From positions 1 to 19,466 of the forward strand of contig JALORT010000004.1 in assembly GCA_025458755.1 (NCBI GenBank): a stretch of 19,466 nt of DNA. Direction: 5' to 3'. The notes under the pieces are model-generated. The model did not search any database. It saw only the letters and a list, made by a program, of their open reading frames with translations, and had not been told where the DNA came from. Below are positions 1 through 17,920 of the stretch, piece after piece (the first letter of the stretch is position 1; each line of letters starts with the position of its first letter). The position numbers and the translations under genes are program-made. Origin of the DNA: Methylotetracoccus sp. (GTDB lineage: Bacteria > Pseudomonadota > Gammaproteobacteria > Methylococcales > Methylococcaceae).

Positions 1-2
1 AA

Positions 3-3002: not shown

Positions 3003-3062
3003 CCGTCATGGAACCAAGCTAATGGGCGATCAATTGACGGTCACCCGCTGACGGTCACCCGC
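2998..3062. repeat. Tandem 14-bp repeat plus inverted copy at end of ATPase gene
   Basis: TGACGGTCACCCGC occurs twice head to tail (3035-3048 and 3049-3062). Its inverted form GGTGACCGTCA lies at 2998-3008, overlapping the TGA stop codon of the ATPase gene. The inverted copy can pair over 11 bp with either direct copy (loop 26 or 40 nt), giving two alternative hairpins. No T-tract follows, so an intrinsic terminator is possible but not shown. A regulator binding site or repeat remnant is also possible. Confidence 0.6.
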
Positions 3063-3160
3063 CTCTAGGGTGGTCGAAGATTTGCGCTGATCCGCATCGA
3101 GGTCGCTGAAACGTCAAAGAAAAAGTCTCTCGACAAGGTGGCAACAAAAGCAGAATTCTG

Positions 3161-3178
3161 TGTAAGATTTCGATTACA
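3161..3178. promoter_or_regulatory. Dyad TGTAA-N8-TTACA upstream of the small ORF
   Basis: An 18-bp interrupted palindrome, TGTAA then eight bases then TTACA, lies in an AT-richer stretch about 100 bases before the start at 3278. Its form and place fit a transcription factor operator. I found no convincing -35/-10 pair beside it, and the factor is unknown. The 275-base gap 3003-3277 holds this dyad and the repeats at its left end, and nothing else I can recognise. Confidence 0.25.
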
Positions 3179-3277
3179 AAGTCCCGGTTGTCTCGCCGGG
3201 CCCTCTGAGCAATAGCAAACCCGGAAACGGGGTAGATTATTGTCCGTCATCATTGCCCACAGAGTGAGAGAACTATC

Positions 3278-3625
3278 ATGGTCAAGAAAGCCACCCAAAC
3301 CGAAGAAGTCGTCGCCGAAGTTGTGACGGAAGAGTCCAAGGGACTCGCCAAAGTGATCAGCGAAAGTGCTGCTGATGCCTGCTCCGCAGCGTCCAACGTC
3401 CTTCCGGAAGCCGGTAAACTGGTCCGTAAGGTCGTTTACAAGGGCTTCTACTACGCCACCTACGGCGTCGTCTACAGCTCGATGGTCGTTGGCAGCCTGA
3501 TTCCGTCGCACAGCGCCGTCGGAGAAGGTCTGCATGACGGCGCCGCTGCCGCACGGAAGGATTTCGCGAGCCGTGGGGAAACGGTGACCGAGGCAGCCGC
3601 GACACCGAGCGCCGCCGCGGCTTGA
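3278..3625 (+). CDS. Small alanine-rich hypothetical protein (115 aa)
   Basis: I do not recognise this protein by name. It begins with a charged Lys/Glu segment (residues 1-25), then an alanine/serine-rich helix-like part, then an aromatic and hydrophobic core around residues 50-80 containing YKGFYYATYGVVYSS and GSLIPS, and ends in a low-complexity Ala-rich tail. No signal peptide is seen. The core could be one membrane-associated helix. A phasin-like or surface-associated role would fit the composition, but I have no motif to prove it. The ATG at 3278 has GAGAG seven bases upstream. It stands alone as a monocistronic unit, since a strong hairpin terminator follows 62 bases after its stop. 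Codon use and the isolated terminator argue that it is a real, probably well-expressed gene. Confidence 0.75.
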   Translation: MVKKATQTEEVVAEVVTEESKGLAKVISESAADACSAASNVLPEAGKLVRKVVYKGFYYATYGVVYSSMVVGSLIPSHSAVGEGLHDGAAAARKDFASRGETVTEAAATPSAAAA

Positions 3626-3687
3626 GCGCCTCGCGCTGAGTCAGCCCCGCGCCGGTGACCGAACCGGTAGCGCGGGCGAACCAACAA

Positions 3688-3714
3688 GTACAGAGCCCCG
3701 ACGGGGCTCTGTAC
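3688..3714 (+). terminator. Intrinsic terminator hairpin, perfect 12-bp stem
   Basis: GTACAGAGCCCC (3688-3699) and GGGGCTCTGTAC (3703-3714) pair perfectly over 12 bp around the loop GAC, followed by GCTTTCATCT, a weak T-tract. It sits between the end of the small ORF (3625) and the end of fdhE on the other strand (3793). It may therefore stop transcription from both sides, though the T-tract is poor in either direction. Confidence 0.8.
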
Positions 3715-3792
3715 GCTTTCATCTCGTAACACCCATGAGGGCGGCGTGTCCGCCGGGTCGGCGGAAACAGCGGATCGCTCTGGATGCTGCGG

Positions 3793-4677
3793 CTACGCGG
3801 CAGGAATCAGGAACGGATTTGCGCCGAACCGCTCGAAGCCGGCGTCGGCCAGCATGATGTCCAGCGCGAGGCTCGCCAGATCATCCGCGAACGGATCGAG
3901 CTTCGGGTCTTTTTCCAAATTCAGAATCTTCGAGTAGGTCCCGCACTGTCCGCAGGCTTCGGCCTTGACGGCCTGGTTCGATCCCTCGACGGCATAGTAA
4001 GCGATACCTTCGGTCGAGCCGCAGTGTATGCACCGGATGCGGGGCAGGTTCCACTGTGTAGCGCAGAGCCCGCAGCATAGATAGCGCAGGCCGTGCTCGG
4101 CGCCGCCCGCAGCGATCACGCTGACGACCGGCCGTGAACCGCACACCGGGCATTCACTCCTGTGCTCTGTACGTGGCGGCGCAATTCCGAGATGTGCACA
4201 CCACGCCGTCCATACGACCTGTAAGGCCGCACCGATGATCGCGGCGGTACCGGGATCGATCTGCGTGTAGTCGCCGACCAACACGGCCTTGGCCCAGCCG
4301 TCGACCTGCTCCGGGGGGGACTGCGACAGAGCGCCAATGACATTTGCGATTTCGGCCCCGTTGTTTCTGCAGCGGTCAGTCACAGTCTCCAGGGCCGACC
4401 GCCAATCGTGCGGAAGGACGCACCGATGAACACTGAGCCTCGGTAGGGAGTCGTCCGGAGCCCATCCCGTCAAGTCGTCTCCGGCGACTGCAACCGCGAA
4501 CTCCCGCGCCGCATCCTGCTGAGCGTCAGCGACTCCGGCGATGAATCGGAGGTACTCCGCCAGCGAGTGTTGTCTCGAAGCGAGATGGCGCAGGCGCTCG
4601 GCGCGACGCCTGAACTGCGTGTAGGGGTCCGGCAGGCGGAGAAACGGCACGTCTCCCGATGCCGCGGTTGCCGCCAT
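3793..4677 (-). CDS. fdhE: Formate dehydrogenase accessory protein FdhE
   Basis: FdhE is a cytoplasmic maturation factor needed for activity of the Tat-exported, membrane-bound formate dehydrogenases. The product is 294 aa, close to the usual length near 300. The C-terminal half carries the family's four rubredoxin-like CxxC pairs: C176/C179 (CPVCGSRP), C202/C205 (CCGLCATQW), C216/C219 (CIHCGS) and C242/C245 (CGQCGTYSKI). The tail DPFADDLASLALDIMLADAG is typical of the family. It starts 13 bases after the stop of the phosphatase gene upstream on the same strand, so the two are probably co-transcribed and translationally coupled. No strong Shine-Dalgarno precedes the ATG. Its likely client is the formate dehydrogenase at 16910-12197, 7 kb away. 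In Escherichia coli the equivalent gene follows fdoGHI directly. Confidence 0.95.
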   Translation of the reverse strand: MAATAASGDVPFLRLPDPYTQFRRRAERLRHLASRQHSLAEYLRFIAGVADAQQDAAREFAVAVAGDDLTGWAPDDSLPRLSVHRCVLPHDWRSALETVTDRCRNNGAEIANVIGALSQSPPEQVDGWAKAVLVGDYTQIDPGTAAIIGAALQVVWTAWCAHLGIAPPRTEHRSECPVCGSRPVVSVIAAGGAEHGLRYLCCGLCATQWNLPRIRCIHCGSTEGIAYYAVEGSNQAVKAEACGQCGTYSKILNLEKDPKLDPFADDLASLALDIMLADAGFERFGANPFLIPAA

Positions 4678-4690
4678 CAGCGCGGCCGTC

Positions 4691-5464
4691 TCAAGCAGCC
4701 GACGCCAGTTCGCGGACCAGGTGGGTCAGCTCCGCGAACCCTTCCAGTACCCAATCCGCCCGGCACGATCCGGAGTCTGCTTCATCGCGCCGGGTCACAC
4801 CGGTGAGCATCAGTACGGTCTTCATGCCTGCGTTGGCGCCCGCAGGAATATCGGTCTGGATGTTGTCCCCGACGGCGATCACTTCATTCGCCGAGAGGCC
4901 CAATCGGGTCAGCGACATGTCCATAATCAACCGCTCGGGCTTGCCAATGACCAAGGGTTTGACTCCGGAGCCGGCCTCCACCGCCGCGACGATCGACCCG
5001 GTGCCGGGTGTCACGCCATGTTCGCCCTTCAGGGTTTTGTCGGGATTGGTGGCGATGAACGTCGCGCCTCGCGCGATCAGGTTACAGGCAGTCTTGAGCT
5101 TGTCGTAATTGAACTGGCGGTCGAGGCTGACAACGACATAGTCGGGTGCATGGTCGGTGATCGTAAAGCCCGCCTTCTCCAGTTCGGAGGTCAATCCTTC
5201 CTCGCCGATGACGTAGGCGCTTCCCCGTTGCAAATACTGAACGGCGGCTTGGGATGACGTCAACACATCCTCAACGTCGCATGGAATGCCATATTCCCGC
5301 AAATGAGCGGCCACGTCCTCGGGCTTTCGGTTGGACCGGTTGGTGACAAACAGGCAAGCGATGTCCAGCTCTGCCAGCAATGAAACGAATTCGGCCGCAC
5401 CGGGGACCTGCTCCGTCCCCAAATAAACGGTCCCGTCGAGATCAAGAATCACACCACGCAGCAC
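4691..5464 (-). CDS. HAD-IIA family phosphatase, NagD/AraL-like
   Basis: This is a cytoplasmic haloacid dehalogenase-type sugar-phosphate or nucleotide phosphatase of 257 aa. All HAD motifs are visible. Motif I is DLDGTVYLG (nucleophile D8, acid D10), motif II is T41 in FVTNRSN, motif III is K175 in IGKPE, and motif IV is GDNIQTDI (D200, D205). The 150-residue cap between motifs II and III is the large C2 cap of the NagD/4-nitrophenylphosphatase group. The substrate cannot be told from sequence; UMP, phosphoglycolate and glycerol phosphate are choices known in the family. The start is GTG at 5464, chosen because GGAGGG lies about ten bases upstream and the first residues MLRGVILDLDG fit family N-termini. 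It is the first gene of a unit with fdhE, with no obvious functional link. Confidence 0.92.
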   Translation of the reverse strand: MLRGVILDLDGTVYLGTEQVPGAAEFVSLLAELDIACLFVTNRSNRKPEDVAAHLREYGIPCDVEDVLTSSQAAVQYLQRGSAYVIGEEGLTSELEKAGFTITDHAPDYVVVSLDRQFNYDKLKTACNLIARGATFIATNPDKTLKGEHGVTPGTGSIVAAVEAGSGVKPLVIGKPERLIMDMSLTRLGLSANEVIAVGDNIQTDIPAGANAGMKTVLMLTGVTRRDEADSGSCRADWVLEGFAELTHLVRELASAA

Positions 5465-5823
5465 GCTGCCGCCCTCCAGTCAAATAAAGTTGAATCCAGG
5501 CGCTTGGGCGCCGACCAAAAAAGGCTTGCAGCCTACGTTTACGTGGTGGGGCTGTCAATTGCTCGACAGGGTTGCCCACCGGATATGCGGCACAGAGGTT
5601 AATCGCGGGGTTGGAAGCCGCATACGCAGCCAGCGGTCTTGTGGTACCTGCGGCCCGGATACCGATATGGGACAATCTCCCGCGAATCACTCCGACTCGC
5701 CCGGCGAGTTCTTCAACTGTGACATGTGCAGCTGCAATTCCGGAGTGTTTCGAACGCCGTGGCGGGTGAGCCCGCAGCGCGATAAAACCAACAGCACTGA
5801 TACACGAGACACATGAGGCCCAA
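5465..5823. other. 359-base gap between divergent genes; inverted repeats only
   Basis: This stretch separates the divergent phosphatase and ABC transporter genes, so it should hold promoters for both. I see no credible gene; the open frames here give Cys/Ser/Pro/Arg-rich translations without domains. Two dyads stand out. The first is an 8-bp inverted repeat TATGCGGC/GCCGCATA (5584-5591 and 5617-5624, loop 25). The second is a near-perfect palindrome ACTCGCC-C-GGCGAGT (5695-5709). A small hairpin GCGGG-TGAG-CCCGC lies at 5762-5775, just before the transporter. No clear sigma-70 promoter was recognised. Confidence 0.5.
5695..5709. promoter_or_regulatory. 15-bp palindrome, possible operator
   Basis: ACTCGCC, one base, then GGCGAGT form a complete dyad with 7-bp arms 114 bases before the transporter start codon. 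A single-base spacer is too short for an RNA hairpin but suits a dimeric DNA-binding protein. The regulator is unknown and chance occurrence in GC-rich DNA cannot be excluded. Confidence 0.25.
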
Positions 5824-7560
5824 ATGCTGCGCATTCCCATCAATGAACAAGGTTGGGGGCTTTTTCTCCAGCTGCTTAAGAATCTCGCGCGTTCAGAAAT
5901 CGGTGGCAAGGCCATCGGTCTTTTCGTCCTGCTGGCCGCCTTGCTCATCGGCGTCAATGGACTGAATGTACTGAACAGCTACGTCGGACGCGACTTCATG
6001 ACCGCGATCGCCAATCGGGACATGAATCAGTACGTCGTCGAAGCGGGTCTCTACCTCGGCGTATTTGCGGCATCGACCGTTGTGGCCGTGTATGTCCGCT
6101 ATGCCGAGGAGAGCTTGGGTCTGCTGTGGCGCGAATGGATGACACGTCGATTCGTCGAGCTGTACCTACAGTATCCGACCTACTACCGGATGAATGATGC
6201 CCTGATCAGAAGCACGGGTATGGAACATCCCGACCAGCGGATCGCGGACGATGTGCGGAGCTTCACGACGACGACGCTGTCGTTCGTGCTGATGTTGCTG
6301 AATGGGCTCTTCACCGTGGTCGCATTTTCCAGCGTGCTCTGGCGGATCAGCCCGACGTTGTTCGGTGTCGCGGTGCTGTATGCCGTGGTCGGATCGCTGC
6401 TTGCGGTCCGCCTCGGAAGCACGCTGGTCGACCTGAATAATTCCCAACTGGATAAGGAGGCGGGTTTTCGTGCCGGACTGCTCCATGTGACCGAACGTGC
6501 CGAATCGATCGCGCTGCTACACCGGGAGAAGCCTCTGCTGAAGCGGTTGTTCCGCCGTCTCGACGACTTGGTGAACAATTTCCGACGAATCATTCGCGTC
6601 AACCGAAATCTCGGTTTTTTCATCACCGGCTACAACTATCTGATGCAAGTTCTGCCGATCTTGCTGGTTGCGCCCTTGTTTATGCGGAGCGAAATCGAAT
6701 TCGGTGTGGTGACACAGTCGGCGATGGCGTTCATCACATTGGTGTCGGCGTTCTCGCTAATCATCACCCAGTTTCAGTCGATCTCATCGTTCATGGCGGT
6801 GGTGCAGCGTTTGATCAATCTGTGGTACGGGATCGAACTCGCTCAGACCGAGACGGTTTCCGGCATCGACTGGTCCGAGAACGGCGAGGCCGTCGCCTAT
6901 GAAAATCTCACGCTGCGCTCGACGAGCGATGGACACGTCATCCTCAAGGACCTGTCGGCCACGATGCCGCAGGGGCAGCGGACGTTGATCACCTGCGTGG
7001 ACAATGCGACGAAGGAGTCCCTTTTCAAAGCCACCGCCGGCATCCTGGACATCGGGACGGGCCGGGTGCTCCGGCCTCGGATGAGTCGAATCCTGTTCCT
7101 GCCCGAGCGCGCGTATCTGCCTCCGGGAACCTTGCGCGAGGCGCTCGTTTCCGGCACTTCGGATGCCGCATTGACGGACGAACAGATCGTCGACACGCTC
7201 AAATCGCTGAGTGCGGAAGCGATCTTGCAGCGTGCCGGTGGACTCGACAGGGAAAATGAATGGGACAGCCTGCTGTCGGTCCAGGAACAGCAGGTCATTT
7301 CGTTGGCGCGGATACTCCTTGCCTCGCCCCAATTCGCCGTGATCGATCTGCCGAGTACCGATCTGAACCGGGAAAAGATGCAGCACATGCTTCGAAAGCT
7401 GACGGAGGCGAATATCTCCTATTTGGTCATGGGTCGTCCAGGTCAGCAGAACGCCGAGGACCGGGCGGAGCACTATGACGCCGTTCTTGAGATCGACATC
7501 GACGGAAAATGGGCGTGGCAGGCGACAAGTGGGCTGGAGCGTCAGAATCCTCCCGTTTGA
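5824..7560 (+). CDS. SbmA/YddA-type ABC transporter with degenerate ATPase domain
   Basis: This is an inner-membrane half-transporter of 578 aa. Residues 1-330 form the ABC_membrane_2/SbmA_BacA-type membrane domain, with hydrophobic segments and the family signatures SYVGRDFMTAI (52-62), EHPDQRIADDV (134-144) and FQSISSFMAVVQRL. Residues 355-570 have the layout of a nucleotide-binding domain but are badly altered. Walker A reads CVDNATKE (391-398), keeping only the Lys. The Q-loop Gln is Glu (FLPERAYLPPGTLRE). The signature reads LSVQEQQ in place of LSGGEQQ. Walker B is FAVIDLP, with Leu at the catalytic Glu, and the switch His is absent (VMGRPG). The frame is intact throughout, with neither stop nor frameshift, so it is not an ordinary pseudogene. 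ATG at 5824 has GAGG close upstream. It appears to be a single-gene unit; the substrate is unknown, while relatives carry peptides or vitamin-like compounds. Confidence 0.88.
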   Translation: MLRIPINEQGWGLFLQLLKNLARSEIGGKAIGLFVLLAALLIGVNGLNVLNSYVGRDFMTAIANRDMNQYVVEAGLYLGVFAASTVVAVYVRYAEESLGLLWREWMTRRFVELYLQYPTYYRMNDALIRSTGMEHPDQRIADDVRSFTTTTLSFVLMLLNGLFTVVAFSSVLWRISPTLFGVAVLYAVVGSLLAVRLGSTLVDLNNSQLDKEAGFRAGLLHVTERAESIALLHREKPLLKRLFRRLDDLVNNFRRIIRVNRNLGFFITGYNYLMQVLPILLVAPLFMRSEIEFGVVTQSAMAFITLVSAFSLIITQFQSISSFMAVVQRLINLWYGIELAQTETVSGIDWSENGEAVAYENLTLRSTSDGHVILKDLSATMPQGQRTLITCVDNATKESLFKATAGILDIGTGRVLRPRMSRILFLPERAYLPPGTLREALVSGTSDAALTDEQIVDTLKSLSAEAILQRAGGLDRENEWDSLLSVQEQQVISLARILLASPQFAVIDLPSTDLNREKMQHMLRKLTEANISYLVMGRPGQQNAEDRAEHYDAVLEIDIDGKWAWQATSGLERQNPPV

Positions 7561-7689
7561 GTATCCACCCGCTTCGGGCCAGCAGGCTGTTATGTCCGTG
7601 GATTCACAGCTCGCTGGACTTGGCTCTCTCTCGGGTCGGCGGCAAGCCGTGTTCACCCGAATGTTTTTGGCCTGCCGGGGTGTGCTGGC

Positions 7690-8277
7690 TCAGCGGTGAC
7701 CGTGCTTGCGGTCGTCGCTGGGCGAGAGGATTTCGCCTCTGCTGCAGTCAGCTTCAGGCCGGCCGGACAATGCAACCGACCTGAAGGACGCCGGCCGAAG
7801 CTGTGACCGATTCAGCCACCCCAACCACAAACCGATGAAGGTGGCCGCAAGCAAACCTTCCCACATCACCTCATGCGCAAATGCGAATGCGCCCGGCGCG
7901 TAGACTCCGAGATAGAACAGGTGGGTAAGTCGAAGCAGATTGACACCGATCAGGACCGGGACGCCCACGGCGATCCCTGACCACTTTGCCTTGGCCGATC
8001 CGGAGCACGCCAGCAGGCAGACAATAAAGGTGACCACGGGAACGAATCCGGTGCACGTATAGGCAACCTGGTAGGCAAAACCCGCCGGATGGATGAGGAA
8101 TGCACCGTCGCGTACCACGGCGATGCCGATGTGCTGCAGCACATCGGCCGTCACGCTCGCCGTGAGTACCGCGAGAGGTGCCAGAAACGGTCCCAGCACC
8201 TCGTCGCGGTAAACGAGAAACATCGCTCCGCCGTAGCCTAGCATCACCGCGGCGAAGCGGAGGTTGAGCGGCTTCAT
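7690..8277 (-). CDS. Exosortase, XrtH-like
   Basis: Exosortases are polytopic inner-membrane cysteine transpeptidase-like enzymes that recognise C-terminal CTERM signals of exported proteins. This 195-aa protein has several hydrophobic helices and the family's catalytic residues. Cys75 lies in AYTCTGFVP, Arg116 in NLLRLTHLFYLG, and His135 in FAFAHEVMWEG. Its short length, lacking the N-terminal extra helices of XrtA, and its neighbour's tail resemble the XrtH/IPTLxxWG-CTERM group; this subtype call is from memory and tentative. A charged, non-membrane tail of about 35 residues follows the last helix. It starts 66 bases after the stop of the S8 protease gene on the same strand, so the two likely form an operon and the protease is its evident substrate. 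Confidence 0.88.
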   Translation of the reverse strand: MKPLNLRFAAVMLGYGGAMFLVYRDEVLGPFLAPLAVLTASVTADVLQHIGIAVVRDGAFLIHPAGFAYQVAYTCTGFVPVVTFIVCLLACSGSAKAKWSGIAVGVPVLIGVNLLRLTHLFYLGVYAPGAFAFAHEVMWEGLLAATFIGLWLGWLNRSQLRPASFRSVALSGRPEADCSRGEILSPSDDRKHGHR

Positions 8278-8343
8278 GCCGACCGCCCTAAGCCCGAGTG
8301 AGGAACAGACAACGGGTTACGTTATTGCCGTTCACGGTCACAC

Positions 8344-8433
8344 TCAGGTGGCAACGCGGCGTCCCTGAAACAGCCCGATCGCGATGATGCCGGCCAACAG
8401 CATCACCATTCCCGTCGTCGAGAAGTCAGGCAC
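8344..8433 (-). other. CTERM-type exosortase recognition signal of the S8 protease
   Basis: These bases encode the last 29 residues of the protease and the stop codon. The arrangement is a short motif VPDFSTTG, a helix MVMLLAGIIAIGLF, and a basic end QGRRVAT. This is the three-part plan of PEP-CTERM and IPTLxxWG-CTERM sorting domains. The motif differs from the standard ones: VP in place of IP, and no Trp before the Gly. That suggests a signal tuned to the neighbouring exosortase. Confidence 0.75.
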
Positions 8434-10167
8434 CTGCTGCACGCTGATGCTCCGTTTCACCTGATTTCCACCCGCCTCAGCGGACACCGCCGTCTGGCCC
8501 GCGGCCTTGGCGCTCACTGTCGTCTGTGCCTGCCCGGCGTTGTTCGTGACCGCGGAAGTCGGCGAGACCGAGGCGACGCTACTGTTGTCGGAGCCGAACG
8601 CCACGCTGGTGCCGGGCTGCGGTGCACCGTTCAACTGCACGGATGCCTTTGCAGTGATCGTTTCCCCCACGTTGTAAGACGACTTGTCAGGATCCAGATC
8701 CAGCACGACGCGCACACCGCCCGGCGGAGGCGTTCCGCCCTTCGGCGTCCGTAAAGCGCTGAGCAACCCCGCACCACAGGGTTGCGGACACTGCGACGAA
8801 TCCCTGGGATACACGGCTTTCTGGAGTTCGGTCACCAGGGTCGCCGGAGTGAGCGCAGGATCCTGTGCGATCCAGAGTGCAGCCACGCCCGCCACGTGCG
8901 GTGCCGCCATGGACGTGCCGTTGTAGTAGGAATATCCGGTGCCAAGGGCACAGGCGCCGCTGTTGTCGTTCCCCACCGTGCTCAGGATGCCATCCTGCGG
9001 AAGGGAGCAGCTCTTGTGCAGACCACCGGGGGCCAGGATCTCGACCGTCGTGCCGAAGTTGGACCAAGGGGTCAGCGCTCCGCGCGGATCGGCCGCGGCG
9101 ACGGTGATCACGTTGTTGCAGCCCGCCGGGGAGTAACCGGATGCGTCCTTGCCGTCGTTGCCTGCGGCGACCACCACCGTCACGCCTTTGGCGACGGCGT
9201 CATTGATTGCCGACTGCATCGCGGGAGACAACAGGCAGCGCGACCCTCCGCCGAGACTCATGTTGATCACTTTCGACGGGGTGGCGTTCGCCGGCACGCC
9301 GGGTACGGTAAGGCCGGCAGCCCAGCGGATGGCATCATTAATGTCCGAGGTCGACCCACCGCACTTGCCCAGGACCCTCACGGCCTGCACTTTGACCGTC
9401 CAGTTGATGCCGGCGATACCCAGGTTGTTATCGGTCTTGCCGACACCGATCGTGCCGGCGACGTGGGTTCCGTGCCAGCTGTTCGGCTGCGCCTGCGGGG
9501 GTTGTCCGAAACCGCATTCTCCCGCCGCCATGCCGTCGCCGGGATCCGAAGGATCACCGTCGCGTCCATCGCCGTCATTGGCTCGGGTCACGTCGCTAAT
9601 CATATCGTAGCCGTCCACCAGATTGGGCGAGCCAACGATGTCCTCATGCGTTTTCACAATGCCGGTGTCGATGACCGCCACGACCACATTGCCGCCCGTG
9701 CTGGCGTCCCAGGCTTTGGGCAAGTCGATGCCGCCGGGCGATTCGCCGGTTCCCGATCCGTTGTTGAAGTAATGCCACTGTTTTGCGTACAGCGGATCGT
9801 TGGGCGTCTTCATCGCGTACAGGATGTAATTCGGCTGCGCATATTCCACATCCGGCCGCTTTTTCAGGTCCTCGACCACAGTCAAGGTTTGATCCTTGGC
9901 CTGGGCGGCGGACATGGTGCTCAGTACGGAGGATTCAATGCGGTAGATGATCTCTCCCCCCGATGTCAGCTGATCCGCGGCGTGGAGACTAAAGGCATTA
10001 AGGTCATCACCCGAGAGGCTTTGCCGGGGCTTCATCTTCACGATGATCTCCCCGGGAACGAAGTCGGGCTCGGGCGGCATGCCCCGCCCCTCCAGGGCAT
10101 GAACTGGAAGCACATGCAGCGCGAGGCTGGCAAGCGCTATGGTGCTGACGGCGACTAGCTTCTTCAT
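8344..10167 (-). CDS. Secreted subtilisin-like S8 serine protease with exosortase sorting tail
   Basis: This is an exported serine endopeptidase of 607 aa. Domains in order are: signal peptide (1-25, ending VHA); propeptide of I9-like type (about 36-119), opening FVPGEIIVKMK and closing VEYAQPNYILYAM; peptidase S8 domain (about 145-475) with the triad D167 (VIDTGI), H232 (WHGTHVAGTIG) and S419 (YNGTSMAAPHVAG) plus oxyanion Asn336 (AAGND); an Ig-like domain (about 485-577); and a C-terminal sorting signal from residue 579. That signal is VPDFSTTG, a hydrophobic helix, then QGRR. An Asp-rich loop at 198-212 may bind calcium. Several Cys pairs suggest disulfides. ATG at 10167 has GGAGA seven bases upstream. 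The adjacent exosortase should anchor or release it at the cell surface. All catalytic residues are present, so it should be active. Confidence 0.95.
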   Translation of the reverse strand: MKKLVAVSTIALASLALHVLPVHALEGRGMPPEPDFVPGEIIVKMKPRQSLSGDDLNAFSLHAADQLTSGGEIIYRIESSVLSTMSAAQAKDQTLTVVEDLKKRPDVEYAQPNYILYAMKTPNDPLYAKQWHYFNNGSGTGESPGGIDLPKAWDASTGGNVVVAVIDTGIVKTHEDIVGSPNLVDGYDMISDVTRANDGDGRDGDPSDPGDGMAAGECGFGQPPQAQPNSWHGTHVAGTIGVGKTDNNLGIAGINWTVKVQAVRVLGKCGGSTSDINDAIRWAAGLTVPGVPANATPSKVINMSLGGGSRCLLSPAMQSAINDAVAKGVTVVVAAGNDGKDASGYSPAGCNNVITVAAADPRGALTPWSNFGTTVEILAPGGLHKSCSLPQDGILSTVGNDNSGACALGTGYSYYNGTSMAAPHVAGVAALWIAQDPALTPATLVTELQKAVYPRDSSQCPQPCGAGLLSALRTPKGGTPPPGGVRVVLDLDPDKSSYNVGETITAKASVQLNGAPQPGTSVAFGSDNSSVASVSPTSAVTNNAGQAQTTVSAKAAGQTAVSAEAGGNQVKRSISVQQVPDFSTTGMVMLLAGIIAIGLFQGRRVAT

Positions 10168-10285
10168 GGTTATATCTCCTACAACCCTGTGTTAGAGTTC
10201 CCGAGAGGCACCCTGACAGTAACCCGTCGGGTCTTTACTGGCCTGTGCTTATGGTCATAACCTCCATTAGTGGTGATGAAAACTT
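10168..10285. promoter_or_regulatory. Divergent promoter region between the protease and the double-propeptide gene
   Basis: Only 118 bases separate the two start codons, so the genes probably share control. The stretch holds the protease ribosome site (GGAGA on the minus strand), an 11-bp dyad ACCCG-T-CGGGT at 10222-10232, and an outer pair CCCGA/TCGGG around it. These could be operator half-sites. No canonical -35/-10 pair was convincing on either strand. Confidence 0.4.
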
Positions 10286-10981
10286 ATGTTGCTTCAACGA
10301 GTTGATGATAATCTGGCGCTCCTCGCGGCACTCTTTGCGGTGATCGCGATGATTGTGGTCGGCATGGCGACACCAGCTTCTGCGGTGGCGGGCGAGGAAA
10401 CGCCGGCATTCGCACCCGGCGAAGTCATGGTCAAATTCCGTGCGGGTACCGAGGCGAGCCGCGCGGTCTCGCGGTCCGCCCGGGGCGACCCGCCGTCGTT
10501 GGAAGGTCTCATGCCAACCTCACGACTGCTGACCGAGAAGACGGGAATTCCACTCCGCGCAAAACAGTTATTGAGCGGCGATTGGGTTCTTTTTGTTATC
10601 GACCTGGACATGCTGACCACGCAGGCGTCTGCGCAGCTCAAGAAGCAGGATAACGTGACCGACGTCGGCCTCGAAGCGGGCGAAACAGGAGGGGTCAGCC
10701 AGCCGGCGACCAAGGACCTTGACGTGACCTTTCGACCCGGCAGTCCGGCGGCGGCATTGATCGAGGAGACGGCAACGGCGGATTCGGAGAAGCGTCTCGC
10801 CGCGTTGGTCGAAGACCTAGGGAAGCGTCTTGCGTTGCCGTTCTCAGGCAAAGTCGAGGCGAAACACCTCCGACTGCGGGTTGATCTGCAGAAGCTGACA
10901 GCCCAGTTGGCTGAACGGCTTGGCGGTTTCGGGGACATGGTGGAGAGCGCCCAGCTGAACTACATCGCGCGGGCCATGTAG
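10286..10981 (+). CDS. Secreted protein with two tandem S8-propeptide-like (I9-like) domains
   Basis: This 231-aa protein has a signal peptide (hydrophobic 10-27, cleavage likely after ASA at 31-33) and no known catalytic motif. Its first half (about 42-130) opens FAPGEVMVKFRAG, nearly the same as the propeptide opening FVPGEIIVKMK of the divergent S8 protease. It goes on to a pattern like the propeptide core. The second half (about 144-231) opens DLDVTFRPGSP and closes AQLNYIARAM, matching the propeptide ending AQPNYILYAM. I infer two copies of an inhibitor I9-like fold without a protease attached. Such proteins could inhibit the neighbouring protease, help it fold, or protect the cell from it. 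There is no sorting tail, so it should be periplasmic or secreted. The ATG at 10286 has only a weak ribosome site; an ATG ten bases upstream stops at once. The homology is by eye and needs a profile search. Confidence 0.75.
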   Translation: MLLQRVDDNLALLAALFAVIAMIVVGMATPASAVAGEETPAFAPGEVMVKFRAGTEASRAVSRSARGDPPSLEGLMPTSRLLTEKTGIPLRAKQLLSGDWVLFVIDLDMLTTQASAQLKKQDNVTDVGLEAGETGGVSQPATKDLDVTFRPGSPAAALIEETATADSEKRLAALVEDLGKRLALPFSGKVEAKHLRLRVDLQKLTAQLAERLGGFGDMVESAQLNYIARAM

Positions 10982-11314
10982 CGCGCAGTGCGGCGGCGTC
11001 GCGATGTGAGGCCGCCCGGGAATTTCGGTTGGCTTCGCCCCGTCGTGGAAGCCCATGAACTCAGAACTCCTCGTAACATTTCGCCCCCCCGGCGTCGTTA
11101 ATCGAAGTGCTGCTGCATCCAGCTCAACTCATCATGCTCTCGACGTTGGAAGCTTGTCAAATCGACACTCGAGGGCGGCGATTCGATGGTTTGCAGAAAG
11201 AACCGACGGTCTGTTCCCCTGTCAGCTGAGATCCAGCAGAGTTGGCACGCGCGAAGGGAGCGTCGGCACCGCGATCAGGGCTGCCTTCACTGCTGCCGAC
11301 TTCAGCGAGCGGAT
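10982..11314. other. 333-base gap between convergent genes; hairpins only
   Basis: The genes on both sides end here, so terminators are expected. A GGCGGC/GCCGCC stem (10992-10997 and 11011-11016) follows the stop of the propeptide-like gene, without a T-tract. The open frame 11055-11366 on the plus strand runs into the 3' end of the next gene, has no ribosome site or recognisable domain, and I do not count it as real. Confidence 0.4.
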
Positions 11315-11335
11315 TTACGGGAACGGAAATCCGCT
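11308..11335 (-). terminator. Possible hairpin overlapping the stop codon of the DUF1353-like gene
   Basis: AGCGGATTT (11308-11316) and AAATCCGCT (11327-11335) pair perfectly over 9 bp with a 10-base loop. The stem spans the TAA at 11315-11317. The stem is strong but no T-run follows on the minus strand, so termination or 3'-end protection is only a possibility. Confidence 0.35.
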
Positions 11336-12133
11336 GACGCGCATTGTGGTGCTGGGCGCCGCCTGATCCTCTTTGATCGCCCGCGCGCCGAAATGGCGCA
11401 CCGCGAAGTGGTAGAGCCTCGCCAGCGGGGCAGGCAGCCCGGAGGCGAGCAGCATGTCGTGGAACTGCCGATCGACATCCTTCTTGGCAATGGGGATCAA
11501 GCCCAGATACTGATAAAGCGCGTCGTGAACCAGGCTGGCGTAGTGCGCCTTGGGCCAAAACGGCTCCCGGGTCACAAAATTGCCTCGGTCGTCCACTGAC
11601 TGGACCGTTTCGCAGCGTTCCCACCAGTCGGGCGTACCGATCAGGGCAAGCCAATAAAACAGCCGTTTGGGAGTACAGCCGTCCCAGGCGTAGGTACGCG
11701 GGCTCCGGATGTCGTAGGTCACTTCGGTGCGATCCGGATTCACCGTGCATCGCCCCGGGTTCACCACGATGTGGCCGTCATGGATGATCAGCCAGTCGCT
11801 GTAGAAGAACTTGTCCTTGGCGATTGCGGCCTGCCGGATCAACGGATAGTCGATGTAATTGATCCACGCCCCTTCCCGATCACGGCCGTGAAAGCCCCAT
11901 TTTTCGAGTTCTCTCTGCTTGGCCTTGGCCGCGCGTTTCCTGCGTTCGGCCAGCCCGATCCAGCGCGGAAGTCCGAACCCCAGATAGACGATGACTCCTG
12001 CAATGATCAGGGGCGGAATGCTTTCGCGGCTCAAGAAATAGGCGCCGCCCAACAGGACGATGCCGATCACCGTCACGGCGAACAGGGCATTGTCCCGATA
12101 CGGCGAGCGCGGGCTAAGTTTGACTGCGTTCAT
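11315..12133 (-). CDS. Membrane protein with DUF1353-like domain, last gene of the formate dehydrogenase cluster
   Basis: The 272-aa protein begins with two hydrophobic helices (about 16-34 and 39-57), then a basic linker (AERRKRAAKAKQ), then a soluble domain. Its last third matches the DUF1353 pattern: an aromatic stretch (REPFWPKAHYAS), the conserved SLVHDALYQYLG (H203, D204), a KKDVDRQFHDMLLASG element with D221, and LARLYHFAVRHFGA. DUF1353 is best known from phage and a few bacterial proteins and has no assigned reaction; the conserved His/Asp pair suggests metal binding, which is inference. The ATG at 12133 has GGGGAAG about six bases upstream. It begins 63 bases after the gamma-subunit gene on the same strand, so it is probably co-transcribed with the dehydrogenase. 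Its position suggests a link to the enzyme, but nothing proves it. Confidence 0.85.
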   Translation of the reverse strand: MNAVKLSPRSPYRDNALFAVTVIGIVLLGGAYFLSRESIPPLIIAGVIVYLGFGLPRWIGLAERRKRAAKAKQRELEKWGFHGRDREGAWINYIDYPLIRQAAIAKDKFFYSDWLIIHDGHIVVNPGRCTVNPDRTEVTYDIRSPRTYAWDGCTPKRLFYWLALIGTPDWWERCETVQSVDDRGNFVTREPFWPKAHYASLVHDALYQYLGLIPIAKKDVDRQFHDMLLASGLPAPLARLYHFAVRHFGARAIKEDQAAPSTTMRVSGFPFP

Positions 12134-12196
12134 GCTTCTTCCCCGAATGAACTCATCGTGACTGGCCGGTTGGCCGAACGTGTCGCCGGCGTTGGC

Positions 12197-12841
12197 TCAG
12201 TGGTCCTCGCCCCGTATCGCGCGCCGGTACCAGCCGGGATGGTGTTTGGCCGCCCATGCACGGCTGACGGTGCCGCGCACCATCGCGCCGATCGTGCCCT
12301 TGATCCAGAGGGCCGCATAGATGTGGACGATGATGCCGCTGATCATCACGAACGCGGAGACCGCATGCAGCAGCACGGCGATGCGCACGACCTCGATCGG
12401 GAAGAAGTGCGCGAACCACGGCCGCCAGATGATGACGCCGGTCACCAGCAGCGTCGGAATCGTCGCGATCATGGTCCAGAACAGCAGCTTCTGCCCGGCA
12501 TTGTAGCGGTCGACTTCCGGCAGCCGGTCTTCGCGGTTCTGCACCACGTCGCCGATCTGCTTCAGCCACTGGACGTCATTCTTGCTCAGCAGGTTGTGAT
12601 GCCAGAACTTCAGTGCCAGCAGACTGAACGAGATGAACATCACCACGCCGATAAAGGGGTGCAGGATGCGCGTCCAGGTGCCCCCGCCGAAGAACTGGCT
12701 GAACCAGAACATCGACGGATGAAACAGCGCTAGACCCGAAAAGGTCAGCATCAGAAAGGTGATGGCAGTGATCCAGTGATTTAGCCGCTCACCCGCGTTG
12801 TAGCGTTGGAGCAGCAGCGTCGGTTGCGGTGTCGCGCTCAT
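12197..12841 (-). CDS. fdnI: Formate dehydrogenase gamma subunit, cytochrome b556
   Basis: This integral membrane diheme cytochrome b takes electrons from the beta subunit and reduces quinone. It has 214 aa and four hydrophobic helices. The heme-ligand histidines of Escherichia coli FdnI (18, 57, 155, 169) have clear counterparts here at a constant offset of four: H22 (GERLNHW), H61 (ILHPFIG), H159 (VLLHAVSAF) and H173 ([10 protein letters not shown]). The C-terminal KHHPGWYR is also typical. Its ATG overlaps the TGA of the beta gene as ATGA, a sign of translational coupling. The symbol could equally be fdoI, or fdhC in other naming; the sequence does not separate the N and O types. Confidence 0.95.
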
Positions 12842-13710
12842 GCGTGATGCTCCTCTTCATCGTCGTCCGTTTCGTTCGGGCCGACCGTGACGTAGTGGAA
12901 GAATCCGGCCAGCGCGGTGAAAAACATCGCCGCGGTCGCGAGCGGCTTCATCACTCCCTTCCAGACCGAAACCATCGCGCTGATGGCCGGATCCTTCGGC
13001 AGATCGTTGTAAATCTGCGGCTTGTCGGCATGGTGCAAGACGTACATCACGTGCGTGCCGCCGACGCCCGGCGGGTCGTACAGACCAGCATCCTCGAAGC
13101 CGCGCTCCTTCAAGTCGACGATCCGTTCGTTGGCGTGCTGGATCATGTCCTCTTTGCTGCCGAAGACCAATGCCTGGGTGGGACAGGCCTTGATGCAGGC
13201 CGGCTCCAGCCCGACCGCCACGCGATCCGAACAGAGCGTGCACTTGTAGACCTTGCCGTCCTTTTTCGACAAGCGCGGGATGTCGAAAGGGCAGCCGGCG
13301 ATGCAGTAGCCACAGCCGATGCAATGTTCCTCGTGGAAATCGACGATGCCGTTGGAATACTGGACGATCGCTCCCGGCGAAGGGCAGGCTTTCAGGCAGC
13401 CGGGATCCGCGCAGTGCATGCAGCCGTCCTTGCGGATCAGCCATTCCAGCGGCCCATTCTCCTCGGTTTCGGCGAAGCGCATCACGGTCCAACTGTTCGC
13501 AGTCAGATCGTGGGGATTCTGGTAGGAACCCTCGTTGATTCCGACCTCTTCGCGCACGTCGTTCCATTCCTGACAGGCGGACTGACAGGCTTTGCAGCCG
13601 ATGCACTTGGTGACGTCGATCAGTTTCGCCACCTCGGTCATCTGCCGCTGTTGCGGGCTCGGCGTGGTGGTGGCGGAGCGGCGGAGTATGTCGAGCGATT
13701 GTAGTGCCAT
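12838..13710 (-). CDS. fdnH: Formate dehydrogenase beta subunit, four [4Fe-4S] clusters
   Basis: The beta subunit carries electrons from the periplasmic alpha subunit to the membrane heme protein. The 290-aa product has four cysteine groups for [4Fe-4S] clusters: [11 protein letters not shown] (36-46), [24 protein letters not shown], and CTLC paired with CIKAC. The [15 protein letters not shown] segment follows, then one C-terminal membrane helix with HYVTVGPNE and an acidic EEEHHA end, just as in FdnH/FdoH. I chose the ATG at 13710 because [14 protein letters not shown] matches the family N-terminus and GGAGG lies seven bases upstream. The frame stays open a further 14 codons into fdnG. Only two bases separate it from the alpha stop codon. 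Confidence 0.96.
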
Positions 13711-13712
13711 GG

Positions 13713-16700
13713 TTAAGCCTCCGTCCGCCCTTTCAAAATGCGTCGCAGCCATGACACCCGTTCCACACCGGCCTCGAGCTTTACCTCGGGACGCGCCCGC
13801 TCCTCATGTCCTTCGCCCGGCTTGTGGGTATGGGGCATGAGTTCGCTCAGATCCTTCTCCACATTGACCAGAAAGGCCTTGAACTCCGGCGTCTGGGTGT
13901 TGGCATCGCCCAAGTACGGGGTCAGGTTGTTACAGAAGAAACCCTTGCGCGTTAGCCCCATGAACCCCCAGTGCACCGGAATACCGATTTGGTGCACGGT
14001 TTGGCTGCCGACCTTCAACGCCCTGATCCGTTTCGTGACCATCGCGACGGCCTTGATGTGGCCGCGCTTAGAGCGCACGGTGACGCGCTCCCCATTGCGG
14101 ATTCCCAACTCGGCCGCCAACTCGACGCCGATTTCCACGAATTGTTCGGGTTGCAGCGAGGCATTGATCCGCACGTGGTCGGTCCAGGTGTTGAACAGCT
14201 CGGTCAGGCGGTAGGTGGTCGCGACATACGGAAACTCCTCCCTGTCGCCGAGCATCGCCCGATCGTTGGGAAACACGCGCGCCGCCGGGTTGCTAATGAC
14301 GTTGGGATGCAGCGGGTTGGTCCCCAGCGGGGTCTCGAAAGGTTCGTAATGCTCGGGAAACGGGCCGTCGGCCAGGCGGTCGGCGCAGAACAGGCGTCCG
14401 ACACCCTCGGGGTTCATGATGAAGGGCGACATCTCGCCGCCGGGCGGCACGTCCGTCTTGTAATCCGGTACGTCCAGACCGCTCCACCGCCTCCCGTCCC
14501 ATGCGATGATCTTGCGCTTCTCGTTCCAGGGCTTGCCGGCAGGATCGCACGATGCTCGGTTGTAAAGGATGCGCCGGTTGGCCGGCCACGCCCAGGCCCA
14601 GCCCGGCGCAATCCCCATACCGGTGGGGTCGGCGGTATCGCGCCGCGCCATCTGATTGCCGGCTTCGGTCCAGGCGCCGCTGAAGATCCAGTTGCCGCAG
14701 GCCGTGGTGCCGTCATCGCGCAACTGCGCGAAACCCGACAACTGCTGACCCGACCGGACCTGGACCTGACCGGGAGTCTCAGGATCGGCCAGATCAGCGA
14801 GGGCGTAGCCGCTGTACTCCCGGGCCAATTCTCCGGGTGTGGGTTCCTCCGGCGTCCTATAGGGCCAGTGCAGGTTCAGAATGGGTTCGGGGAATGCCCC
14901 CCCTTCGTTCCGATACAGCTCCTTCAGCCGCAGATACAGATCGGACATGATCTCGATATCGTTCCGGGCTTCGCCGGGCGGCTCCGCACCTTTCCAGTGC
15001 CACTGCAGCCAGCGTGAGCTGTTGACCAGTGAGCCGTCCTCTTCGGCAAAACAGGTGGTGGGTAGCCGGAAGACCTCGGTCTCGATCGTCGCGGGATTCA
15101 CGTCATTATGCTCGCCGTAGTTCTGCCAGAACTCGGAGGTGTCGGTCGCCAGCGGGTCCATGACCACCATGAATTTCAGCTTGGATAGCGCGGCGCTGAC
15201 CTTGCCCTTGTCCGGATAGGAGGCCAGCGGGTTGAAACCCTGGCAGACGAAGCCGTTGACCTTGCCTTGCGCCATCAGATCGAACATCCGCATGCTGTCG
15301 TACGGCTTGTCCAGCTTGGGCAGCCAGTCGTAGCAGTAATCGTTGCCCCGCGTGGCCGCACCGCCATACCAGGCTTTCATCAGGCTGGTATGGAATTTGG
15401 GAAGGTTCGACCAGTAGCTCCATTGGCCCGGCCGGAGCGGTTTCAATGTGCGCTTTTCCAGATAGCCGGCGCGGTCGGTTTCGTGGTCCCTGGGCAGAGT
15501 GATGTAGCCCGGCAGCATCTCGGTCAACAGGCCCAAGTCGCTCAGACCTTGAATGTTGGAGTGGCCGCGCAGTGCGTTGACTCCGCCGCCGGACATGCCG
15601 ATGTTGCCCAGCAGCAGCTGGATCATCGCCATCGCGCGGATGTTTTGTACTCCGACGGAATGGTGGGTCCAGCCCAACGCATAGAGGCTGGTCAGGGTGC
15701 GGTCGGGGACGGCGGTGGAGGCGATCAGCGCACACACCTCGAGGAAAGCGTCCGTCGGCGTGCCGGTGATTTCCGTGACTAGCTCCGGCGTGTAGCGGTC
15801 GACGTGGGTTTTCAGCAACTGGAACACGCAGCGGGGATGCTGCAGACTTTGATCGACCTTGGCGTAGCCCTGTTCGTCCAGTTCGTATGTCCAGGTCCTG
15901 CGGTCGTAGCGCACTTCCGGGTTGCTCGCGTCGTAACCGCTGTAGAGACCGCCCTCGAAACGGAAGTCCCCGCGCACGATGAACGGCGCGTTGGTGTAGG
16001 CCTCAACATACTCATGGTTGATCGCGTCTTTGTCCAGCAGATACCGGATGACGCCGTTCAGGAAGGCGATGTCGGTGCCGGCGCGGATCGGGACGTAGAG
16101 GTCGGCAACGGCCGCCGTGCGATTGAACCGCGGGTCCACGACAATGAGCTTGGCCTTGTTCCGGGCTTTCGCTTCCACCGGCCATTTGAAGCCCACCGGG
16201 TGGGCCTCGGCCGGATTGCCGCCCATCGCGATGATCACGTCGGCGTTCTTGATGTCCATCCAGGTATTCGTCATCGCCCCGCGGCCGAAGCTGGCGGCGA
16301 GCGCGGAAACCGACGGCGCGTGACAGATCCGCGCCTGGCTGTCGAGCATCACGATGCCCAAGGCGCGGCAAATCTTGTTGGTGATGTAGCCGGTTTCGTT
16401 CGAGGCGGCGGAGGCAGCCAGAAAGCCGACCGATGTCCAGCGGTTGACGGTCTGCCCCTGCTCATTCTTCGCGATGAAATTGTGGTCGCGGTCCTCCTTG
16501 AGCCGCTTGGCGATGCGCTCCATGGCCCAATCCCAGGACACGCGCTTCCATTCGCCGCTACCGGGCGCACGGTATTCCGGGTATTTCAGCCGCGACGGGC
16601 TGTGCACGAAATCCAGCAGTCCGGACCCCTTCGGACACAAGCTGCCGCGGCTGACCGGGTGATCGGGATCACCTTCGATGTGGATGATCTCGGCCTTGAC

Positions 16701-16910
16701 ATTCTTGGCTCCGTCCCCCATACCGTACATGATCAATCCGCAAGCCACTGAGCAGTACGGGCAAGTGTTCCGGGTTTCCGTGGTACGCGCCAGTTTGAAA
16801 GTGCGCACCTCCGCCAGTGCCTCGCTCGGGGAAAATCCCAGAACCGCCAGCGTCGAACCGCTGAGTGATGCGGCGCTCAATTTGAAGAACTGACGCCGGT
16901 TGACCTGCAT
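13713..16910 (-). CDS. fdnG: Formate dehydrogenase alpha subunit, Tat-exported, Cys-type molybdopterin enzyme
   Basis: This catalytic subunit oxidises formate to CO2 at a Mo or W bis-molybdopterin centre, facing the periplasm. The 1065-aa protein starts with a Tat signal ([11 protein letters not shown]5-R6; cleavage near ALA, 31-33). The proximal [4Fe-4S] cluster ligands are C50, C53, C57 and C92, the same numbers as in Escherichia coli FdnG. The active-site residue is Cys196 (QARICHAPS; codon TGT, plus-strand bases 16323-16325) where E. coli has selenocysteine 196. His197 is kept. Further matches run the full length ([36 protein letters not shown]-like end regions). About 50 extra C-terminal residues, acidic then basic, follow the usual end. 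The frame is open 54 codons upstream, but ATG 16910 has GGAGGAAG just before it and gives the Tat signal. Symbol could be fdoG. Confidence 0.97.
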
Positions 16911-17571
16911 GACTTCCTCCCCTTGCGACAAGGGCAATGCACGGAGTTTGGTGAGCGTCGAAACTCTGCTCCTTTTTGCGACGGAACTCAAGATCCCCTG
17001 GTGCTTTGCACACCCTCGCTTCCGCGCCGATGCGACGCCTCGCGTGTGATGCGGCCAGGTGCGCCGGTTCACGACGCTGCCACAAAAGATGCGCGACGTC
17101 TCCGGAGCGGCTGGACGTGAGTTGGTTCGCTACGGCGGCGAGAAAGTCTCGCGTCAGTTCCGAAGGCAGACTGATGCGGCGGAGCACCCGCAGGATGCCC
17201 TGTTCGTCCACCACGTGCACTTCGATCGGCAGTTCGCGGGTACGATGCTCGAAAGCCGGGATGTCCCGCTGCGCGGGCGGCAGCAGCCGGATGTCGAACG
17301 GGCACTCGAAGGTGAGCGTGGGCGTCCTGGTGGAACGCAGGAACTGGAACAGCCAGAGCAGGGCGCCGTCCGCCGTGAGCAGTCCCGCGCGGACCGTGCC
17401 CTTGCGCAGCGCGGCTTCTTCGCTCGCGTTCATTCCCGGCAGCGTGATTTGCAGGATCGAACCGCATTTCATCAGGAATCGCGCAGCGGCGCCGTCCGGT
17501 GTCATCGCCGGCAGCGGATAGGGCTGGCCGAGTTCGGGGGTGACGGGTATTGCGGCCGGATCTGCCGCCAT
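16669..17571 (-). CDS. Unrecognised ORF upstream of fdnG; 3' end uncertain
   Basis: I do not recognise this family. The first 150-160 residues look like a real soluble protein, with alternating hydrophobic and charged stretches such as LLTADGALLWLFQFL, LTFECPFDIRLLPPAQRDIP and RVLRRISLPSELTRDFLAAVANQL. No signal peptide or membrane helix is visible. The frame then continues as low-quality sequence and overlaps fdnG by 242 bases, where it is a shadow of that gene. A normal stop is missing, so the true end is probably near 17070-17120. A one-base shift would bring in the TGA at 17069-17071. An ATG at 17571 with GCAGG upstream seems a better start than the TTG at 17586. It lies between a tRNA gene and fdnG on the same strand, so it may be the first gene of the formate dehydrogenase unit. 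Confidence 0.5.
   Translation of the reverse strand: MAADPAAIPVTPELGQPYPLPAMTPDGAAARFLMKCGSILQITLPGMNASEEAALRKGTVRAGLLTADGALLWLFQFLRSTRTPTLTFECPFDIRLLPPAQRDIPAFEHRTRELPIEVHVVDEQGILRVLRRISLPSELTRDFLAAVANQLTSSRSGDVAHLLWQRREPAHLAASHARRRIGAEARVCKAPGDLEFRRKKEQSFDAHQTPCIALVARGGSHAGQPASVLQIERRITQRFDAGGSGIFPERGTGGGAHFQTGAYHGNPEHLPVLLSGLRIDHVRYGGRSQECQGRDHPHRR
16913..16920 (-). promoter_or_regulatory. Strong ribosome binding site that sets the fdnG start
   Basis: On the minus strand GGAGGAAG stands two bases before ATG 16910, with the GGAGG core six bases away. It decides between this start and the earlier in-frame GTG at 17072, whose extra 54 residues would put the Tat signal inside the protein. Confidence 0.8.
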
Positions 17572-17626
17572 CGGGCCTGCGTTCAAGAGACGGTCAGTGG
17601 GCGGGAAACGGCCTGGGTCGAGGAAA

Positions 17627-17703
17627 TGGTGGTGATGGGTGGACTTGAACCACCGACCTGAGGGTTATGAATCCTCCGCTCTAACCGCCTGAGCTACATC
17701 ACC
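17627..17703 (-). tRNA. tRNA with CAU anticodon, elongator tRNA-Met (tRNA-Ile2 not excluded)
   Basis: The 77-base cloverleaf is complete: acceptor GGTGATG/CATCACC fully paired, D arm GCTC/GAGC, anticodon loop TTCATAA, T arm GGTGG-TTCAAGT-CCACC, discriminator A, and an encoded CCA. The anticodon stem GAGGA/CCCTC has an A-C mismatch next to the loop. The first base pair is G-C, unlike the unpaired first position of the initiator tRNA, so this is not tRNA-fMet. A lysidine-modified tRNA-Ile with the same CAU anticodon cannot be ruled out by eye. Confidence 0.95.
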
Positions 17704-17920
17704 TCGAAGAGAAACCGCGTCAAGCAGCAGACGCGCTACTCAACCGCACACCGCTCAATGTTCACAAGACCTGTGGCGCGCTGCGAAGGGCGGTGAATAT
17801 GCCGCTTTGCCGCTGCGCTGTCAACACCCACTCGTTCCGCGACGGGTCACCCGTCGGCACCGGCCACGCTGCGCCGCGGGCCGGATCGCAGAGATGCTTC
17901 CCGGCAAGGGTTGGACTTCG

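Follow-up and report, generated by a model that had tools for sequence, protein, structure and literature searches.

Here, we describe a cassette of three genes, encoding an S8 protease, an exosortase and a propeptide-like protein of 231 aa (the third gene), in a stretch of 19,466 nucleotides of DNA from Methylotetracoccus sp. (assembly GCA_025458755.1, contig JALORT010000004.1, positions 1 to 19,466; hereafter the window). At the level of sequence, the three parts of this cassette are shown to occur together across genomes, in separate, operon-like and fused forms, with a single tail-bearing target detected. The reading that we favour, and regard as moderately probable, is that of a dedicated exosortase–protease pair accompanied by a trans-acting, propeptide-derived inhibitor, of which we infer the inhibition, the anchoring and the self-processing of the fused form. 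A first-pass annotation of the window had proposed a comparable model, which is supported in part: the trio proves conserved, a single target was detected, the propeptide likeness largely holds, and the "double propeptide" is revised.

The three adjacent open reading frames (ORFs) on which that annotation was built were found where it had placed them, and the co-occurrence across genomes that it suggested looking for was observed: in 5/5 genomes in which the third gene was found, spread across two phyla, the same S8 protease and exosortase lie beside it, a recurrence that confirms the trio to be beyond chance. When 251 genomes of the order were searched with the third protein, three matched, namely the window's genome, Methylococcales bacterium STA_49 (G225, locus L007) and Methylobacter sp. 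E6 (G106, locus L008). A scan of the contigs of GTDB species genomes, which relied on two strict patterns and may therefore miss distant relatives, returned four loci, in STA_49, in E6 and in two Nitrospirae metagenome-assembled genomes (MAGs), NS_12 (G618, locus L013) and NS_3 (locus L014). Three arrangements are represented among these examples, all of which come from draft genomes. In the window, the protease gene lies 66 bp upstream of the exosortase gene on the minus strand, in line with the operon neighbour previously assigned to the protease, and the third gene is divergent. In E6 and STA_49, the three genes are close-set on one strand in the order protease, exosortase, propeptide-like protein, the last two overlapping by 4 bp in E6 and separated by 2 bp in STA_49, which makes an apparent operon of them. 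In NS_12 and NS_3, the protease and the exosortase are fused and the third gene is divergent. The surroundings differ as well, with FdhE and ABC transporter genes in the window, ATP synthase-like genes in E6 and Lon/PpiD-like genes in STA_49 (the latter two identified by eye). Simple pairwise ratios of nonsynonymous to synonymous substitutions (dN/dS) stayed under 0.4 for each of the three genes wherever a pair could be computed. A recent import of the cassette into the window's genome was considered and rejected, as the GC content of its genes (61.7–63.5%) brackets that of the window (62.2%).

The co-distribution of the parts was further examined with profiles. An exosortase profile built from the five cassette copies matched 27/251 genomes of the order at E ≤ 1e-8, the three cassette exosortases scoring 301–310 bits and the next match 82.4. 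The cassette exosortase and the propeptide-like gene thus occur in exactly the same 3/251 genomes, a coincidence expected by chance once in 2.6 million if the two sets were independent, a figure that ignores kinship and the origin of the profile in these very copies. Within Nitrospirota, the cassette exosortase was found in 1/295 genomes (295.7 bits, next 68.6) and a full-length propeptide-like protein in 1/395, NS_12 in both cases; NS_3 carries both genes yet matched in neither search, presumably because it lies outside the sampled genomes. Neither gene had a match in the two listed genomes of the same genus (G070 and G091) in the order searches. Other exosortases do not appear to belong to such cassettes: among the 28 non-cassette matches in the order, the 27 that could be inspected (about 1.5 kb on each side, less at contig ends; one match came without a locus) had no propeptide-like gene, and one of them, L059, had a weak S8 match nearby (E 3e-4, 24% identity) when the other 26 had none. 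Likewise, 0/15 further Nitrospirota exosortase loci showed an S8 or a propeptide-like gene. The propeptide-like profile itself matched 1/398 genomes over the phylum (the window's genome) and 2/369 over the class, the window's genome and G328, the latter match being dropped as spurious (50 positions, in a 62-aa frame with a stop). It matched 8/395 Nitrospirota genomes, seven of which were dropped since the match covered 27–49 positions in the propeptide region of S8 ORFs; the stretches fetched at these seven loci end before the S8 ORFs do, so that a C-terminal exosortase might lie beyond them, but the 15 genomes matched by the exosortase profile include none of these seven. Relatives of the 231-aa protein were found neither in plasmids, phages nor PHROGs, and the eight pattern matches in viral contigs were not confirmed. 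Overall, the cassette is rare among the bacterial genomes searched.

The exosortase of the window passes two general models of the family, TIGR04178 (46.7 bits, cut-off 23) and PF09721 (39.2 bits, cut-off 25.7), and the alignment shows Cys75, Arg116 and His135 to be invariant in 5/5 cassette exosortases, which we take to be the conserved catalytic residues. It passes no exosortase subfamily model, the nearest being exosortase H (TIGR04177; 62.8 bits against a cut-off of 86). That cut-off is reached by 3/5 cassette exosortases, including both fused copies (E6 89.8, NS_12 89.4 and NS_3 93.2 bits), when the STA_49 copy falls below it at 81.9. By these scores, the window exosortase is a divergent relative of exosortase H. 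The five cassette exosortases form one clade among 46 rows (support 100/96, with a bootstrap that is not fully settled). Genome-wide, a single exosortase match was obtained in each of STA_49 and NS_12, two in each of NS_3 and the window's genome, and three in E6. Besides the cassette copy, the match in the window's genome is a fragment at a contig end (C209, 5015–5926, locus L009) that scored 23.2 bits against the cut-off of 23 in one scan and 18 in another, and that is nearest to the exosortase E/protease model (TIGR04162), below its cut-off (50.2 vs 150 bits). As a separate observation, exosortase relatives of about 350 aa adjoin single proteins with VPIGNWP or VPAGSIP tails (read by eye) at two Nitrospirota loci, L078 and L079, which are perhaps further dedicated pairs.

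The partner of the exosortase is an S8 protease (PF00082, 177.9 bits) whose propeptide matches the fervidolysin-type model PF22148 (28.2 bits, cut-off 21.0, residues 33–113) and whose Big_1-like domain scores 32.3 bits against 34.9. Its N-terminus is hydrophobic and signal-peptide-like, and its C-terminus reads VPDFSTTG, a transmembrane segment (TM) and GRRVAT, so that the sorting signal attributed to it from the first is indeed present. The three unfused tails (window, E6 and STA_49) read [KQ]VPD[LF]S, TM and R, and P-x-[LF]-[ST] is common to all five tails, the fused ones included; this motif resembles the IPTL-type motif of exosortase H. A tail profile built from the three unfused tails and run on their three genomes (the window's genome being G000) matched one protein per genome in 3/3 cases, with 75–79 bits, and the next-best match reached at most 14.2 bits (E ≥ 0.19), as anticipated for a dedicated single target. 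The claim of a single target is firmest in E6 and STA_49, which are 99% and 98% complete, the window's genome being a draft of 2.9 Mb in 521 contigs with 72% completeness. Since the exosortase adjoins this target in 3/5 cassettes and is fused to it in the other 2/5, the pair qualifies through its single target and its adjacency as a dedicated sorting system, in which the processing of the tail itself is only predicted.

The third protein is more elusive to family models. Its only Pfam match at E ≤ 1 is to PF22148, over residues 29–60, with a score equal to the cut-off (21.0 bits); relatives score 21.0 and 20.5 bits. No NCBIfam model matched it, and a search of its own genome with PF05922 (I9) at E ≤ 0.001 matched contig C400 alone, not the propeptide-like gene. 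In profile comparison with hhalign, the two halves of the protein resemble each other (94.6%), and its outer parts, taken together, align with the S8 propeptide over its full length (composite E 2.5e-9, 76 columns), when the inner unit does so at E 0.083. The breakpoint is imprecise, as a join shifted by 14 residues gives E 8.5e-9 and another shifted join 1.7e-7 over 31 columns. The propeptide likeness of the "double propeptide" described in the first-pass annotation therefore holds for the outer parts, but not its composition of two plain copies: the protein is better described as one propeptide (about residues 37–106 and 200–231) interrupted by a second, permuted ferredoxin-like unit (107–199), an intramolecular swap that the structural alignment ranges and the hhalign matches jointly suggest. 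As for the I9-like fold that had been expected, a propeptide-like beta-alpha-beta-beta-alpha-beta fold is predicted, and the 50 best solved matches include propeptide-length subtilase chains (PCSK9, ProteinT and an A. fumigatus protease), which align within residues 37–231, but these subtilase propeptide matches score level with unrelated ferredoxin-like folds. A Foldseek search with the predicted fold gave no match at E ≤ 0.001, and a single-sequence search of solved structures with the 231-aa protein gave none at E ≤ 10. Judged by its profile matches, the third protein is propeptide-derived.

The position of its C-terminus bears on what such a protein might do. Residue 121 or 122 of the window protease aligns with chain residue 2 of its 11 best solved S8 relatives, which, assuming that the first residue of the solved chains is their natural start, predicts a propeptide cut at about NYILYAM/KTPND (M119/K120). 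The propeptide-like proteins share an invariant QLNY in 5/5 copies and end 5 residues after it in four and 6 in one (NYIARAM in the window, NYVSTAM in STA_49, NYVSTGMN in E6, NYVMTTF in NS_12 and NS_3). In the window and E6 proteases, a Met stands at +5 after NY, which is the predicted P1 residue in the window; in NS_12 and NS_3 the corresponding cut (NYILEIAD/TAPND) falls at +6, and the free tail is for this reason one residue short. The C-terminus of the propeptide-like protein thus stops at, or within one residue of, the predicted propeptide cut of the protease. A 97-aa chain of a solved subtilase (9rk9_A) also ends 5 residues after NY (KNYIYRAL), with a sequence match that is not significant (E 0.33). 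Subtilase propeptide tails sit product-like in the active site and add to inhibition, although they are not indispensable to it in every case (passages of PMC10580911 and PMC6993865). It could be objected that the 231-aa protein serves as a guard against foreign proteases or subtilases other than its neighbour, and that it stands beside the exosortase pair by accident, given that a stand-alone I9-like protein may inhibit a single subtilase or several (excerpts of PMC6993865); however, the constancy of its neighbours in 5/5 genomes of two phyla, the 4-bp gene overlap in E6 and the sequence match to the propeptides of the cassette proteases themselves make this very unlikely.

According to the reading that we favour, the S8 protease would be exported as signal peptide, propeptide, catalytic domain, Ig-like domain, VPDxS motif, TM and R, its own propeptide would fold it and then be removed at about M119/K120, as the solved relatives suggest, and the adjacent XrtH-like exosortase would recognise P-x-[LF]-[ST] in that single tail and cleave it, a recognition supported by adjacency, single target and fusion. 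The propeptide-like protein, presumably exported as well, would bind the mature protease like a detached propeptide, with its free C-terminus (NYIARAM-COOH in the window) placed product-like in the active site, and its anatomy suggests that it could hold the protease inactive in the periplasm until sorting. Upon cleavage of the tail, the protease would leave the inner membrane and be either attached or released at the surface. In this regard, the exosortase may release the protease rather than anchor it, and form with the propeptide-like protein a secretion checkpoint for a free exoenzyme. Anchor chemistry is not visible in sequence, and a study of MYXO-CTERM proteins counts type II secretion among the possible fates of the tagged proteins (PMC11980579); we deem such a release somewhat unlikely, and it concerns the end point only, being compatible with the dedicated pair and its putative inhibitor.

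A different role, that of a trans-acting folding chaperone for the protease rather than of an inhibitor, has to be weighed for the propeptide-like protein, because S8 propeptides act both as chaperones and as inhibitors (as sections of PMC6993865 and PMC10580911 state). The STA_49 locus is the case in point. Its S8 gene (L007 12259, minus strand) lacks the propeptide stretch (241 alignment columns), the rest of the protease being conserved (dN/dS 0.117 vs E6), and the propeptide-like gene is intact. A natural dependence on the separate propeptide, an assembly fault (the contig having a coverage of 4.6 according to its record title) or a recent loss may each account for this propeptide-less protease. 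However, the signal-peptide frame ends and the ATG of the catalytic ORF overlaps that stop, and the loss of this frame argues against a natural dependence. At the other four loci, the protease retains a propeptide region of its own, which would make a second chaperone redundant, and a C-terminus at or near the P1 equivalent would fit inhibition better than folding. A role chiefly in folding is accordingly unlikely in our view. At the same locus, a second protease/inhibitor pair was noticed, composed of a chagasin-family I42 inhibitor (PF09394, 69.6 bits; L007 8882–9370, minus strand) beside the cassette and of a stop-interrupted papain-like gene (12750–13400, minus strand; PF00112, 22.9 bits on the second piece and none on the first). 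The E6 locus holds another S8-like protein (L008 4857–8143), which lacks the cassette tail and weakly matches the window protease; an alpha/beta-hydrolase-like protein (weak Pfam hits) comes next, at a distance of about 1 kb from the propeptide-like gene.

In NS_12 and NS_3, one ORF, of 707 and 704 aa, respectively, encodes both the protease and the exosortase. Its order is propeptide, S8 domain, proline-rich linker, KAP[AG]LTRTDLAG, TM, RRRS and the first TM of the exosortase, so that the fused tails retain K-x-P-x-L-T before the TM and RRR. The predicted topology is consistent, with a tail TM running out-to-in, the arginines inside and an exosortase starting from inside. An AlphaFold model of the NS_12 fusion was unusable (mean pLDDT 34, pTM 0.30) and nothing was drawn from it. 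All examples being drafts, the STA_49 copy being disrupted on a contig of coverage 4.6, and the two fusion MAGs bearing sister isolate names and possibly sharing one study, one might suspect a chance adjacency or an assembly artefact, fusion included; but the fusion ORF runs unbroken on each of two distinct contigs, its two proteins are 87% identical with a dN/dS of 0.305, and the trio recurs in differing surroundings, which leaves this suspicion extremely improbable. Because the tail TM runs out-to-in and RRRS leads directly into the first TM of the exosortase, the fused enzyme could cut in cis. With the exosortase covalently carried by its substrate, sorting would involve one enzyme per protease molecule. 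We tentatively put forward the fusion as a self-sorting protease, which would cut its own N-terminal protease free, once per molecule, and whose guard would be the swapped two-unit propeptide, keeping the protease shut until the cut. Such a unit of protease, sorting and guard, if this self-sorting holds true, would be unlike the dedicated sorting systems known to us.

Table 1. Features of the cassette and of its neighbour in the window
Feature	Coordinates	Strand	Basis
Exosortase, XrtH-related, 195 aa, Cys75/Arg116/His135	7690..8277	-	Profile matches, alignment
S8 subtilase, 607 aa: signal-peptide-like N-terminus, propeptide, catalytic domain, Ig-like domain, C-terminal sorting tail	8344..10167	-	
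Protease propeptide, residues 33–119, predicted cut M119/K120	9811..10071	-	PF22148 and N-termini of solved relatives
S8 catalytic domain, residues 159–452	8812..9693	-	Asp/His/Ser triad D167, H232, S419 invariant in three aligned copies
Big_1-like Ig domain, residues 489–575, slightly below curated cut-off	8443..8703	-	
Sorting tail VPDFSTTG, TM and RR, residues 579–607	8347..8433	-	
Divergent intergenic region, 118 bp, between protease and propeptide-like genes	10168..10285	.	
Propeptide-like protein, 231 aa, N-terminus hydrophobic, signal-peptide-like	10286..10981	+	
Outer propeptide unit, N-terminal part, residues 37–106, FAPGEVMVKF motif	10394..10603	+	
Inner permuted ferredoxin-like unit, residues 107–199, without significant propeptide sequence similarity	10604..10882	+	
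Outer propeptide unit, C-terminal part, residues 200–231, ends QLNYIARAM-COOH at P1 equivalent	10883..10978	+	
DUF1353-like neighbour, cassette membership doubtful	11315..12133	-	Also adjoins propeptide-like gene in E6 (2/5 loci)

The DUF1353-like gene listed last in table 1 is 33% identical (E 8e-19) to its counterpart in E6 (L008 8602–9105, minus strand). Both match PHROG 1158, "tail assembly chaperone", and the window copy is below the Pfam cut-off (17.9 vs 22.5).

By model name, exosortase E/protease (TIGR04162, VPEID-CTERM) is alike in joining an exosortase with a protease, and the TIGR04162-like fragment of the window's genome lies elsewhere, separate from the cassette locus. To our knowledge, the protease part of exosortase E/protease is not an S8 substrate. 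Among the matches listed in open-licence PMC, we found no report of a protease–exosortase fusion, nor of an exosortase locus with a propeptide-like protein, and both the fusion and the combination of the exosortase pair with such a protein are, within these matches, apparently new to print. As for their significance, exosortases were discovered through comparative genomics, and their biochemistry is hard because a species with PEP-CTERM proteins frequently carries at least twenty targets (portions of PMC3237569). Here, an exosortase seems to be left with a single target, to which it is in some cases covalently linked, and its partner is an assayable protease with a candidate inhibitor; the fusion would provide a substrate–enzyme pair in one polypeptide, suited to asking what and where exosortases cut.

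The closest parallels are found in the rhombosortase/GlyGly-CTERM systems and in exosortase H and its relatives, which likewise have a sorting enzyme beside its sole target and a tripartite tail of motif, TM and basic residues. In the rhombosortase survey, enzyme and target lie at most one gene apart in 16/21 single-target genomes, and S8/S53 proteases are shown among the GlyGly-CTERM proteins (sections of PMC3237569). The cassette differs from rhombosortase systems in its exosortase, its VPD[LF]S-type tail, its third propeptide-like gene and the enzyme–substrate fusion of two Nitrospirota MAGs. With regard to the third gene, stand-alone mimics of subtilase propeptides have been described, namely the yeast peptidase B inhibitor, Pleurotus POIA1, Arabidopsis SPI-1, TgMIC5 and Plasmodium SUB1-ProM, the gene of the last also adjoining subtilase genes (extracts of PMC6993865). 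The propeptide-like protein resembles them by its separate gene, and would share with them a propeptide fold and a tail pointing toward the active site; it is unlike them in its two units with a predicted swap, in its detectable similarity to the propeptide of its partner and in its end at, or within one residue of, the P1 equivalent. The mimics named in the portion of PMC6993865 concerned are eukaryotic and the protein described here is bacterial, which suggests a bacterial counterpart of these stand-alone propeptide inhibitors. Overall, the cassette combines a dedicated sorting system, as PMC3237569 uses the notion, with a propeptide-like partner such as those known from eukaryotes (PMC6993865).

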